From Rhizophagus irregularis (taxonomy: Eukaryota; Glomeromycota; Glomeromycetes; Glomerales; Glomeraceae): a stretch of 64,000 bases of DNA. Position 1 is the first letter of the stretch. Every line of letters begins with the position of its first letter. Location: the NCBI RefSeq assembly GCF_026210795.1, contig NC_089455.1, forward strand, positions 2,542,001 through 2,606,000, written 5' to 3'. Shown here one piece after another: positions 727 through 7,774 of the stretch. The position numbers and the translations under genes were made by a program. A model generated the notes under the pieces. It did not search any database and was not told the origin of the DNA. It was given only the letters and a program-made list of their open reading frames with translations.

Positions 727-878
727 TTAAGGGTACAGTATGTGTCGATCATTTTTATTATGTATCAGGTGGCTATTTTTTCTAAACACGTGCAAATCCA
801 AAAACTCGGTTTACATATCAACTCAATTATCGTGACATACAAACAAGTTTTACATTTCAAATTTTAGCCTATAATAAT

Positions 879-1271
879 ATGACACGTAACTGGTATAATT
901 TTATCGTTCAAAAAAATCCTTCCATCTATAAAAGTTACCAAAGAATGAATAAAAGCTGGTTTGTTATTGAAATGTCTTCTGAATTTGAAGTGTTACCTCT
1001 CCATAAAGAATTATCGGAATTTTTTTTGCCAAAACACTACTATTATAATCTTGAAAAAACTCTACAACTAAATGCAAATGTTGGTTATATTCATTTGCAA
1101 AACAATGCTCATGACGAAAGTTCATGGGTTCCATTATTACCAGATTATACTGTATATACCTCTTTAGCTGGAAATTTTTTCAAGTTATCTATTAAAAGAG
1201 TGGAGGATTCTTTGCAATATTTTTGGCAAAATTTTGGCAAAGATTCTACGTTTATTAATTGTAATGCTTAA
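879..1271 (+). CDS. 5' reading frame of the transposase-helicase, closed by TAA
   Basis: This open frame of 130 codons from the ATG (open back to about 795) lies inside the transposon, just upstream of the main gene. It is in the same frame as the main ATG at 1299. The only obstacle between them is one TAA (1269-1271), followed by nine sense codons. Its amino-acid composition is protein-like, rich in aromatic and charged residues, but I recognise no domain. It is either the true N-terminus of the transposase separated by a nonsense mutation, a 5' exon with a splice I could not place, or a small separate protein. Confidence 0.5.
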   Translation: MTRNWYNFIVQKNPSIYKSYQRMNKSWFVIEMSSEFEVLPLHKELSEFFLPKHYYYNLEKTLQLNANVGYIHLQNNAHDESSWVPLLPDYTVYTSLAGNFFKLSIKRVEDSLQYFWQNFGKDSTFINCNA

Positions 1272-1298
1272 GGTCAGGAAAAATTAGGGTTTCACTTA

Positions 1299-4200
1299 AT
1301 GATAAAACATTATAATTTGAAAAATATATCACTTCCTTCAGTTCTGGGGCTTACCGAACCTACTATAATAGAAATTTTGCAAAAAACAATTCATAAAGTT
1401 TTTCCAGATCGTTTTTCCTATCATGGCCAAACTAAAAAAGAAAAAGGTTTAATTCGTAGTCTTAAACGGAAAAGTGATGAACTTGAAAAATTTTGTAGTA
1501 CTGAAGAAACTATTGTTTGTGGGATAAAATTGGAAGAAAAGGGAAAAATCATCAATCCAAAATTTACACAAGCCCTTATGGTGATGCATGAAAAGGATAA
1601 ATCGGCATTATATAATGCTAACCGTAATATTAAACGGTTAAAAATCAAGATCGCACAATTTCAAGATGAAAAATCCAATTTGAATAATAAAACTGAAATA
1701 CTAAACCAAAAATCTGAGAGGATAAAGAAATCAGTAAATGATATATTAGACGAAAAAAAATTAGGATCTACAATTTTAATTAGTACAGAGCAATATCTTT
1801 CTCTTATACTTTCTCATCCTTGTAATCATTGTAATAATACCGATCTTCAAAATAAATCTTATCATGTATCATATGTGGGTTTTAATATTACAATTGATGT
1901 AAGTTGTCAACTATGTGGTACGATTGATTCATATTCCAATCAATCAAAGGGGATCAACTTTTCGCATCTTATTGCAGCATCAGCTTTGGCAAGTGGTGTT
2001 AATCGTCATGCAATGCAAACTGCATTGGCAGTTATGGGTATTACTACTCAAAGTTGCAAACAATCATACCATAGATACCAATCTCAGATGTTTCCCACTA
2101 TTATATCAAAAGCTGAGGAATCCGCTAGACAAGCACTAGACGCTGCTATGGCTCATGCTAATACAAAGGAAAAAAAATCATTTGTTGTTGGATTTGATTG
2201 TTCTTGGTCCCACTCTCGCAATGCAGGACAAGCGAGTGGTGAATTTATTTACTTAGATGATCTTGAAGGTATATTGTAATAAATTTTTTATTTTAATTAT
2301 TTTCTTAATCCAGCAAATGACATGTTTTAATAATTTTTTAATTATATAATATAAGGTTATGGGCATAAAGCAGTTGTTGCTTTTCATGTAGTAGAAAAAT
2401 CTCGTATTATTACCAGAAAAGGAAAAGATAGTGCTTCTGAAGAAAAAGTTGTATTACGAAAAGGTAATTTTGAAGCAAGTTCGCGCCAAATGGAACATGC
2501 TATTTTAATTGCGCTTTTGGAGCAGATTACTCCAATTTTGGAAGAGTCTGACCTTTTGCTTGAAGTTTGCATTGATGGTGATTTGGATTCTAACAAAACC
2601 TTAACAAATGTTCCCATCATTTCAGAGATTTATGCGGATCTCAAGCATGCAAGCAAAAATATTCGAAAAAATTTATGTAAGTTAATTTTTTAATTATTTA
2701 AAACATTATTTACTTAATTTTTTATTCATTTAATAATAATAGTAAAAAAACAATATGCGCGTTATCATGGTTTTGAACAACATATAATGAGATATTTTAA
2801 TGGATGTGTCTTTGCTGCTGGGTTAAGAAAAAGTAATAATGAATCAAATACACCAACAAATGAAGAATTGCGTTATATTCAAGTAGAAGGTTTAATTCAA
2901 CATTTGCTCAATAATCATGATCTTTGTTGGAAAGAAGTTTGTTGGCATAAAGAAAATGAAGAATTACAATTACAATCTCCAACATTACAATCTTTTACAA
3001 AAATAGAGATTGAAGGGTTTCGGAAAATGCTTTTAACAATTTTCAGACTTCCTATACAACAAAGTCTTGTTACTCAATATCGAACAACTTATAATGAAGC
3101 TTTCAACCGAAAAATTTTACGATTTCTCGATAAACGAATTGATTATTGGGCTTCTTATAAAGCACGTCATGCTTTAGCTGTTATAGATAATAATGAAGGC
3201 CTTAGTTGTATGATGAGCACTGTACGTGAGACTGCTGATTTCAGTTCACATGATCAGCATAATATAAGTAAATTTACTGGAGAACGTCAAAGTGAATTAA
3301 ATCGTTCTCGAAATATTATAACTAAACGTAACCAAGAACGTGCTACAAAATATGCTAATGAACGTCAAGAATTGCAGGGATTTGATTTTAGTCAGGTTAA
3401 TTTTCATGTCTAATTATTTTAATTTAATAAAAGTTTTATTATCTAACATACTTTGTGAATTTTATTTGCATATAGGAATTAATTCCATATAAGTACAAGG
3501 CAGAGGAAAGAATACGAGCTAATGCATTTTATCCCTCTTTTGGAAAACTAATTGCAGATTTTGATGTGATTATTAAATGTCAAGGTTGTTCTGCATTCCG
3601 TAAGAAAACTGTAACTGGTTTATGTTCTTTATGTTCATTTTATGTTTTAGCAGGTTGGTGGGAACGCTTATTGAACAAAAATTATGTTCCTGCTATTAAG
3701 CAAAACCTTTTGGATTCAAAAGAAGTAATATTATTAGCAGCAAAACAAGTATTTGGTTATAGTCATTTGCGAGAAGGACAACTTGAAGCTGTAGAGGCAT
3801 ATTTAAAGAACAAAGACACATTTGTATCAATTAAAACAGGAGGGGGGAAAACATTTTGTTACGTAATTTGTGCATTAATTTTTGAAGGTATAACAATAGT
3901 TATTAGTCCACTGAAAGCCTTGATGGAAGATCAAAAGGCAAGTCATTGTTTTAATTAATTGATTTTTGAAAAAGTTGCTTATAATTATTATATATTAGCG
4001 AGAGTTAGTGCATCTTGGTATACCTTGTGCTTCAATTTATGCAAATACAGTACAAAGCAGAAATGAACAAGGCAAAATATTTGAAGAAATTGCACTTGGA
4101 TTTACAAAAATTATATTCGTTACTCCTGAAAAACTTTGCTTAAATAGAGAATTTCAACATTTTATTAGTAATATGTATAATACGGCAAAAGTGCGTTTTG

Positions 4201-5735
4201 TGATTGATGAAGCTCATTGTATTTTAGATTATAGTAACTTCAGGTAAATTATTTATGAAAATATAAAAATGTTGTAATATAATATTATTTAAAATACGCA
4301 TATATTAATATATATTTTTCTAATAGGGAATCTTGGAAAAAATTAGGAATATTGAAAAAAAATTGGCCTTTGGCTCCTATTATGCTTTTAACTGCTACAT
4401 GTACATATCAGGATGCTCAAGACATTCGTACATCCTTTGGAATACCATCAGAAAACTTTGCCATGATCCGAGGTTCCTCTTTTGAGCGCAAAGAAATAAC
4501 TATAGAAGTTTATAAAAGAAAGGATAATCGTGAACTATTTTCAAATGACCTTATGAGTTTAATTAAAATGCACGAAGGAGAAAAGACTATTATTTACTGT
4601 GCAACACAGTCAGGATGTGATGATCTTTTTGCAATACTGCAATTACTTTTACCAGATAAAAATATAGGTATATATCATGGTGGATTAGGAGACGAACAAC
4701 GTGAAAGTATTATGTCATGTTGGAAAAATGGCAAAATTCAAATAATGATTGGAACTAATGCATTTGGAATGGGTATTAATTCCACTAATGTTTATCTAGT
4801 AATACATTGTGTAGCTCCTTTGAATATGAGTAAGTAAACAATATCATAATTGTTTCTAGTGTATATTTTGTTGACATTTTTTATATCTAGCAAATTTAGT
4901 GCAACAAATTGGACGAGCAGGACGTGATGGTAATAAAGCCAAGAGTATTATATTTTATTCAATAAAAAAAGATTTAAGAACAAATTTTGGAATCTTGGCT
5001 GAAAATCGGGAAACGTGTGTATTATATAATAATAAAAACAAGTTTATATCATAAAAAAAATATTTCACTTTCCACATGATTTTAATAAACAAAATAACTT
5101 GCACAAAAATTACATGATCCTAAAATTATGAATTTGACTGTTTGTTACAACCTACTAGATTCTTTAATATTCAAAATATGACTGATCAAGAATGTGAACG
5201 AAAACGTTACCTTGATACTGGAGCACACAAAATTCGCGAAGTTCTTCTATTTTGCCGAAATCAATATGAATGTCGAATTCAACTAATTAGTCGGTATCAT
5301 TTTTGGAATGGTGATAATATTCCTTCTCCTTGTTTGAAGTGTGATAACTGTAAAAATCGGATAAAAGAACAGCCTACTTATGAGAATTGCATAGAGGAAG
5401 TTTTCCATTTATTGGAAATTATTGAGGAAATGAGTAATAATAACTATGAGATTACTGAAGATGATGTGGTGAAAGTTTTTTGTAAATCAAATACTAAAAA
5501 GATTCGAGAATCAGGTTTGAATGAGTTAGAAATATACAAAAGTGGTCGGAAACCAAAATTTGGAAAATCAAAAGAATTTTCTGGTTATATACTTGCAGAT
5601 TTAATAGTACGTGGTTATGTAGAACAAAAAACTTTACTTCATTATTCTTCACCAAACGCCCAAACCTTATCGGCAAGCGTGTTTATAGAGGGACTTACGA
5701 CTGAAGCAAAAGCTAGAGTTATAGAAGATTCATAG
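1299..5735 (+). CDS. DDE transposase fused to RecQ-family DNA helicase (8 exons, 1284 aa)
   Basis: Exons by in-frame splicing: 1299-2268, 2356-2676, 2743-3395, 3476-3937, 3999-4243, 4327-4829, 4891-5014, 5159-5735, totalling 3,855 nt. Residues 1-150 include a charged, coiled-coil-like stretch; a CNHC...CQLC zinc knuckle follows at about 180-210. DDE candidates are D300 (FDCSW), D397/D399 (DGDLD), the signature DLKH at 418-421, and E549 (YNEAFN). A second CxxC pair at 683 onwards leads into a full helicase: Q-motif region (FGYSHLREGQ), Walker A TGGGKT at about 769, DEAHC at 872, LTAT, QIGRAGRDG at about 1057, and the RecQ zinc-binding domain (C...CLKCDNC). The fourth intron (3938-3998) would use a GC donor; the others are GT-AG. 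The helicase half matches RecQ family order; the transposase half resembles Kolobok/Mutator-like enzymes. It is intact from 1299, so it may be expressible, though the upstream frame carries a stop. Confidence 0.8.
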
Positions 5736-6184
5736 TATTATTGGGTACATAGAAAATAAATAAATATGTATTTTGCTTTGTAAAATGTAATAATAAAAAA
5801 GTATAAAAGAGAAAAATGAATTTTGAAAGTGGGTTTACGCGAAAATATGTATATTTTATTTAGTATAGGTCTATGTGCTAACTTATAAGATGAGTCGAGC
5901 CAACAAATTGGCAACAAATAAAATCTAAGATTTCATATTCGCAAAAACATAGTTTCATATTCGCAACTTTATATGAAGATTTTTCCAAGTTTTTTTTTAA
6001 AGAATACAGTTTCTTAAGTTAAAAAATGAAAGTTCAGAACCGTGGCTTTCTAACAGTATAAAATTTATCCTTTTATGTTAGATATTGCAAAAGTTTGAAT
6101 TTTACAGAAAATTGTGTGACTATGTAACGTAAATTTTGCACATCAATTACTATGAAATTATCACGCGACATACTGCACCCTTAA

Positions 6185-7774
6185 ATTCCATAATAATTGT
6201 ATTCTAAAATCCTTTTAATTAACATTTTTATCAATTTTTTTAATATTAAGTATGAGTTAATTAAAGCAGTATCTAATAACCAGAAAAATAACGGCATTCA
6301 CGTTTTTCGTATTGGTAATTGAGTACCATAATATCCTCATAATTGGTCAGCAATATCCACTCCATCCATAAAGTTATTGTAATCATCAATTATAACAAGA
6401 ATGGGTAAAGATTTTTTGCTTGCAGTCCCAAAAACTACTTGAACCTTAACTGTATTAGTACTTGTTTTATATGGTCTACATTAAATTCTCTCAATTCAAT
6501 TTTTATTTCCATTATCAATTTGGTGAATAGTTGAAAGCATAGTAACTAGGCTATTATCTATCCACAAAATGGCCAACACATTATCAACAACTACCCCAGA
6601 AAGTGTATCCCAGTCCAGTTTTCTGTTTATTTTAAAAATATGTGAAAAATTAGCACTATTTTTGCGAACAGTTTTACATGTTTCAATTTTTTTTTTACAC
6701 AAATATTTAAAAAGCTTAATACTAGAAAAATAATTGTCCATATAAATATTGAATGATTTATTTTCTGTTGGCAATTAAGAAACAAGATGATACACTTCAT
6801 TACCCATTTTACTTAAATCTGGTACTTGTTGAACTTCAGGCTGGTTTTGAATTCTGGAAGTAAAAATAAAAGAATATGTATAACTAGCATACACAGAGAG
6901 AGAGAATTTTGTAGCCTTCTGGGGTGGGTTTATTTTTAATTCTTACAATATAAGTATTTTTTTCTAAAATCTAACTATTATCCCATCAACTGAAATATCT
7001 AATAATGGCACACAGATTGATTTGAAAATTGTTTAGATATGAGTTGCTAAAGGATCTATTTTAGAATACCAAAATGGAAGCTGAACAGTGCAATCTGAAA
7101 TATGCATAAAATGTTTAATCTAAATATATTAACAATAGTTTAAATTAAGTTTTAATTAATTTAATAAAAATATTAATATACATAATAACAAATATCTGTT
7201 CAAAACAAACTAGAAACATAAAAGTTGTAATTTTATGTTTAGGAAACTTATTATCTCTATTTTAATCATCTTGAATACTAGGCAATTTAAAAACGTCTGC
7301 ATATATTAGAATTGCCAACCAAATTCTAAACTCTTTTATTGTTAATTCTTTCCATTTACGTCCTTCTCCTGCATCCTTCATATAAGCATATTTATTTGTA
7401 TTTTTAACAATTATTTTTATTTGTTTAAGAGAAAAAAAAGAGAAAAAAAGTTAAGTAAGGTGATAGTAAAAGAAAGTTATTAGGTAAATTTATGGTAAAT
7501 TTATGTAAAGGTTTAGTATGTTAAAAATTGTCAAAAAAAGGTGGTGGTGGAAGTTGTGCAGCTTATTCTCTATTATCCTTTTCACTACTGCTATTTCTTG
7601 CTCTACCCTGACCTCTATCCTGACCTCTACCTCTATTACCATCTTTACCACCAACATTCTCTTCATTTTGAATTTCTTCAACATTATTATTACTATCGCT
7701 ATTATTGTCTTGTTCATCAGTAATATTATAAATATTCTGAAAAAAATCAACAATAAACAAATCCTATTTATCAT
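6185..7774 (-). pseudogene. piggyBac transposase remnant, N-terminal and catalytic part
   Basis: Read on the minus strand from about 7774 down to 6185, this is the N-terminal and catalytic part of the piggyBac gene whose C-terminus lies at 109-726. The start region is an acidic and RG-rich tail (about 7760-7563). A W-rich helical region follows near 7390-7270 (TNKYAYMKD, EFRIWLAILIY). Near 6990 is SVDG, near 6730 YMDNYFSSIKLF, and near 6340 DGVDIADQL, which occupy the positions of the three piggyBac aspartates. KTSTN and LPILVIIDDYN flank them. In-frame stops occur, for example just before 6774 and within the DQL segment, so it is not functional. The break at 6181 is exactly the TTAA target of the 5.45 kb transposon. 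Confidence 0.85.

Follow-up and report, generated by a model that had tools for sequence, protein, structure and literature searches.

A decayed transposon, probably of the KolobokH lineage, of Rhizophagus irregularis with a predicted single-gene DDE transposase and RecQ helicase

Introduction

Kolobok DNA transposons share TTAA targets with piggyBac but differ from it in having RR...YY termini, and the fungal Kolobok lineage in which a RecQ helicase lies downstream of the transposase was named KolobokH by Kojima and Bao in 2022 (PMC9587614; this and the other papers cited here are drawn on in part). KolobokH has no CCHC finger after the first catalytic D, a feature that marks KolobokP, KolobokE, KolobokD, Kolobok5 and a few solitary families (PMC9587614). 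The subject of this report is a stretch of 64,000 nucleotides from the arbuscular mycorrhizal fungus Rhizophagus irregularis (contig NC_089455.1, positions 2,542,001 to 2,606,000; hereafter the window), in which a transposon occupies positions 731 to 6180. Judging from its sequence, this element is very probably a DNA transposon of autonomous type, now decayed, that belongs to the KolobokH lineage, was inserted at a TTAA in a dead piggyBac and carries a single gene for a polypeptide with both a DDE transposase and a RecQ helicase; the lineage was assigned against the published definition rather than against reference sequences.

The KolobokH name has also been used in PMC10799480 and for an element of Cladobotryum mycophilum that, like the one described here, is associated with RecQ-like helicases (PMC10989895). 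The Cladobotryum element is about 10,470 bp long, is adjacent to a telomere and has two RecQ-like genes as well as an uncharacterised gene (PMC10989895), whereas the window element measures 5,450 bp, has what appears to be one fused gene and belongs to a family that is mostly internal in the genome. The same 2024 paper describes telomere-adjacent KolobokH as structurally similar to one found mainly in R. irregularis and cites Kojima and Bao for this; the word Rhizophagus does not occur in the main text of Kojima and Bao (PMC9587614), and the statement may rest on a supplement or on Repbase. A transposon survey of R. irregularis used a Kolobok profile, and Kolobok is not among the families given as found in the parts of that survey drawn on here (PMC11075540); the corresponding parts of PMC12730594 contain nothing on Kolobok. 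Two further systems resemble the window element in carrying a helicase. Kolobok-1_CCri from a rhodophyte is a Kolobok with a RecQ helicase, but there the helicase is encoded on the complementary strand and hence is not fused (PMC9587614). AcademH is a helicase-carrying transposon as well (PMC10799480), but it belongs to another superfamily.

Set beside the published description of KolobokH (PMC9587614), the window element is alike in its TTAA duplication, its RR...YY termini, a DDE transposase with a C/D-x-x-H signature, a RecQ helicase downstream and a fungal host, here R. irregularis. No difference was found from what the consulted parts of that description contain; whether the two enzymes form one polypeptide is not stated in them, and the read-through copies described below speak for one. 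An earlier note on the window, made from the sequence alone, had raised the possibility that such a fusion was undescribed. That suggestion does not stand, as the architecture of transposase plus RecQ is already known, and since the lineage has already been named KolobokH the element is not a new kind (PMC9587614).

Element boundaries and target site

The boundaries of the transposon, which has a TTAA on each flank, and the 4-bp target duplication are settled by an empty site at C13:3340377-3340642 (C and L numbers designate contigs and related loci, respectively). The joined flanks of the window element are 93% identical to this site over all 266 bases, and the coordinates and the duplication are settled because this uninterrupted relative has a single TTAA and no insert. 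Comparison of the left and right ends of the element shows agreement at 12 of the terminal 13 bases and at 14 of the first 17, and the flanking TTAA copies and matching ends that had been reported earlier are confirmed. In a survey of the window element, L001-L003, L011, L012 and L014-L020, each as far as it reaches an end, TTAA is present at 11 of the 12 left ends and at all 11 right ends. The termini conform to the RR...YY pattern of Kolobok, being GG...CC in the window element, in L014-L016, which are miniature inverted-repeat transposable elements (MITEs), and in L017-L020, and AG...CT in L001 and L002.

The window element is flanked by remnants of a decayed piggyBac that lies on the minus strand, as indicated by Pfam matches to PF13843 at 6496-6774 (9.6e-10) and 7262-7450 (1.7e-07), both on that strand; a match to zf-Tnp_2 at 109-408, also on the minus strand, is below the family cut-off (0.017). 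When the flanks are joined, the piggyBac reading frame resumes across the join in one frame. Between the parts of the interrupted piggyBac, at about 340-600 of the window, motifs resembling gccgaaac are abundant and a gggtttaggg run is present.

Table 1. Features of the transposon, in window coordinates.
Feature	Position	Strand	Basis
5' target-site copy, TTAA	727..730	.	read from sequence; single copy in empty site
Left terminal inverted repeat, GGGTACAGTATGTGTCG	731..747	+	14/17 agree with right end
Exon 1: N-terminal region, CxxC..CxxC site, first catalytic D (FDCSWS, residue 440), in-frame stop 1269-1271	879..2268	+	alignment, motifs
Exon 2: second-D region (IDGDLDSNKTL), DLKH signature	2356..2676	+	splicing, motifs
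Exon 3: H-x2-C-x4-C site, catalytic-E region (NEAFN)	2743..3395	+	splicing, motifs
Intron 3, phase 0, transposase/helicase junction	3396..3475	+	absent in L017-L020 (letters read for L017)
Exon 4: CxxC linker; RecQ motif 0, Walker A (TGGGKT) and motif Ia	3476..3937	+	splicing, Pfam, PDB sequence match
Exon 5: DEAH motif II	3999..4243	+	splicing, Pfam
Exon 6: motifs III-V	4327..4829	+	splicing, Pfam
Exon 7: motif VI (QQIGRAGRDG), favoured donor 5015	4891..5014	+	splicing, alignment
Exon 8: RecQ zinc-binding domain and RQC, stop codon	5159..5735	+	PF16124 8.2e-07, PF09382 9.8e-06
3' non-coding end, about 75% identical to 374-bp MITEs	5912..6180	+	alignment
Right terminal inverted repeat, CGCGACATACTGCACCC on + strand	6164..6180	-	end comparison
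3' target-site copy, TTAA	6181..6184	.	read from sequence; single copy in empty site

Gene structure and condition of the window copy

Splicing of the window gene joins eight exons in a single frame that runs from the transposase-like half into the RecQ half, as had been proposed. The start of the gene had been placed at 1299, which proved to be incorrect. Alignment with L001, L002 and L003, relatives that are 77-79% identical to the window element at the DNA level, puts the start at the ATG at 879 and gives 1,424 codons, so that 140 N-terminal codons had been missed. Codon 131 (1269-1271) is an in-frame stop in the window copy and a sense codon in the three relatives, and intron 4 is GC-AG in the window copy and GT-AG in the relatives. 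The last donor is ambiguous and could be at 5015 or 5042; 5015 is favoured because L001, L002 and L003 show GTGAGT at that column of the alignment. With the exon limits of the window gene applied, L001 has three in-frame stops and L002 has two, while L003 is frameshifted and broken by about 1.35 kb.

Transposase and helicase halves

The reading of the N-terminal half as a putative Kolobok-like DDE transposase holds, with the motifs assigned by conservation alone. In a motif table of 16 rows, some of them closely related to one another, D440 and H561 are conserved in all 16 rows and D558 and E689 in 14 each; the table comprises the window copy together with 15 of 25 loci, L003, L011-L016 and L018-L020 having been left out. 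The second D was read in the window copy and L017 only. D558 and H561 belong to the DLKH signature, which lies between the second D and the E and corresponds to the C/D-x-x-H signature of Kolobok, and the earlier suggestion of a D/D/DLKH/E domain is thus upheld by these motifs. In the interval between DLKH and the E, where Kolobok transposases have a zinc finger, lies an H-x2-C-x4-C site with three candidate ligands only (residues 629-637; H629 in 15 of the 16 rows, C632 in 14 and C637 in 15). From D440 to D537 there are just two cysteines in the window protein, which is consistent with the lack of a CCHC finger after the first D in KolobokH. Membership in piggyBac was considered, given the common TTAA targets, and rejected. 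The termini differ, the element interrupts a piggyBac, and PF13843 (DDE_Tnp_1_7), which is found in that interrupted neighbour, is absent among the Pfam matches of the transposase half up to E = 1.

By its sequence matches, the C-terminal half is a complete RecQ core that consists of predicted helicase, RecQ zinc and RQC domains. Pfam matches were obtained for DEAD (4.6e-26), Helicase_C (7.7e-24), RecQ_Zn_bind (8.2e-07) and RQC (9.8e-06), and the best matches among solved structures are E. coli RecQ (1oyw, 5.6e-61) and human BLM (4o3m). These matches bear out the proposed RecQ helicase with its zinc domain, which follows a CxxC linker. The profile search that had been recommended for the protein succeeded for the RecQ domains, and for the transposase half it returned no transposase family in Pfam.

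Copies in the genome and constraint on the two halves

The genome searched consists of 146,748,485 bases on 32 contigs, and copy numbers from these searches are lower bounds. The proteins of exon 3 and exon 4 each had at least 35 matches, which, when joined at 2.5 kb, formed 31 clusters with the window's own included. Both halves are present in 29 of these. Copies with the same termini and no helicase, which could have spoken against a fusion, are represented only by 374-bp non-coding MITEs and truncated 5' fragments. The MITEs were rejected as evidence against the fusion, being without coding DNA. They are about 80% identical to the window element over its first 54 bases and about 75% over its last 269, and a 382-base MITE query that included the target copies was fully covered at 90% identity or more by 7 of the 43 matches listed, the query itself among them. 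A fragment at C12:2234319 matches the 3' end of the element only, at 96%. Nearly all of the RecQ-zinc matches in the genome (21 of 22) fall in or next to the 31 clusters. The sole match outside them, at C4:3899936-3900073 on the minus strand, is possibly a host RecQ gene. An alignment-based scan of viral contigs detected no relative.

Four of the copies, L017-L020, belong to a sister subfamily. Across about 5.19 kb, L017 shares 99.85-99.92% identity with each of L018, L019 and L020, and over residues 3-941 it has about 39% identity with the window protein. All four are flanked by TTAA at both sides, 5,181-5,183 bases apart, and 30 of 36 bases agree between the ends of L017. Recent movement is suggested because these copies are near-identical, have matching ends and lie between TTAA copies on four contigs. 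The flanks of L019, on C23, are an AT-rich tandem repeat with a spacing of about 100 bases and when joined have 456 matches in the genome, and the left flank of L018, on C22, appears coding-like by eye.

Both the transposase and the helicase halves are under constraint. The ratio of nonsynonymous to synonymous substitution rates (dN/dS) for three pairs was 0.207, 0.185 and 0.176 in the transposase half and 0.154, 0.153 and 0.131 in the helicase half, values that are counting estimates which include time spent decaying and for which L003 was left out. These values bear on the possibility that the gene for the helicase was captured as passive cargo and takes no part in transposition. In favour of this, some Kolobok lineages consist of a transposase only and others have unrelated accessory proteins (PMC9587614). 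Cargo should decay or be lost, however, and passive cargo is disfavoured for this reason, given that constraint on the two halves is similar and that the halves stay joined in copies whose exon matches fall to about 31% identity to the window protein. We consider it unlikely that the helicase is a mere passenger.

One polypeptide or two

The fusion as first proposed hung on one unverified splice junction, and the element could instead contain two adjacent genes, a transposase gene ending within intron 3 and a RecQ gene with its own transcript, and no fusion protein. If intron 3 is not spliced, exon 3 runs into an in-frame stop at 3411-3413 as this alternative would have it, and the placement of RecQ "downstream" of the transposase domain by Kojima and Bao is compatible with either arrangement (PMC9587614). 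Several copies argue against two genes. L017-L020 (on C20, C22, C23 and C18, respectively) have no intron at the junction, the exon-3 and exon-4 matches adjoin base to base, and a single open reading frame (ORF) of 382 amino acids covers both sides; the letters were read for L017. A copy on C24 has an ORF of 443 amino acids that holds exon-3 and exon-4 matches 72 bases apart. L001 and L002 remain in frame from exon 3 into exon 4, and the junction letters are identical in L003, but with a frameshift upstream. The distant copies L005 and L006 also have an intron at this position, and their helicase frame restarts at the same residues. Moreover, the window copy has no in-frame Met within the 125 residues from the junction to Walker A. 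The read-through copies and the lack of a Met in this interval favour a single polypeptide in which the transposase and RecQ would be fused, and two separate genes are accordingly improbable.

Several observations weigh against the assignment of the window element as a KolobokH transposon with a fused gene, or give it less support than the rest. The matching ends are weak proof of the boundaries, because pairs that agree at 12 of 13 bases are not rare in the AT-rich DNA of the window; this level was reached by 36 of 1,113,025 ordered TTAA pairs, the true pair included. The left end of L012 is without TTAA, the sole miss among the ends surveyed, and the empty-site relatives of L017 have ATAA in place of TTAA and are weaker than the empty site of the window element. 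The transposase half had no match to a transposase family in Pfam or among PDB sequences. The window copy, L001, L002 and L003 each bear stops or frameshifts and none is clean. Two clusters have a single half, namely C1:3873473 (transposase only) and C29:3236067 (helicase only), and fragments outside the clusters, on C26 and at C1:3930606-3933908, match the 5' part only. The first 130 residues have a dN/dS of 0.23-0.32, higher than either half. Finally, an unspliced intron 3 would leave a protein with the transposase alone, which means that the gene could have two products, and three of the five distant loci with a match across the junction (L008, L009 and L010) are garbled by stops and frame.

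Relation to telomeres

KolobokH adjoins telomeres in Cladobotryum (PMC10989895), and in R. irregularis three of the 31 clusters (C28:3421519, C8:31357 and C11:5172449) lie less than 51 kb from a contig end where 0.7 would be expected, a cut that was chosen after the distances had been seen. A telomere-associated RecQ-like helicase gene that was lately captured by a transposon, or that lies beside one by chance, is nevertheless hardly credible and was rejected, as the other 28 clusters are farther in, the window copy lies at 2.54 of 3.46 Mb, and the helicase sits inside TTAA-bounded units together with the transposase in nearly all clusters.

Possible role of the helicase

The KolobokH literature, in the parts drawn on here, describes the architecture of transposase plus RecQ and does not state a role for the helicase. 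By analogy with its family, the DDE part would cut at the terminal inverted repeats and insert at TTAA, and the tethered helicase, which by family would be a 3'-5' enzyme, may act at the same ends. Its most likely activity there would be to unwind strand-invasion or gap-repair intermediates after excision. Several helicases, BLM included, unwind strand-invasion intermediates, and Drosophila that has lost BLM is severely defective in synthesis-dependent strand annealing, and flanking deletions are often seen (PMC8951532). Based on these observations, a RecQ core tethered to the transposase could protect or refill the donor site. A stronger version, which we regard as doubtful, is that the protein is a self-contained cut-and-repair machine in which RecQ takes apart the strand-invasion intermediates at the gap left by excision and the donor is refilled from the sister copy, making cut-and-paste transposition effectively replicative. 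If true, this would explain why the helicase has been kept in 29 of the 31 clusters.

With settled ends, a single frame at the junction and four near-identical copies available, the question of why a RecQ helicase is part of a cut-and-paste transposon is directly assayable. The KolobokH family also matters for counts of RecQ genes in arbuscular mycorrhizal fungi, since it accounts for all but one of the RecQ-zinc matches found here (21 of 22).

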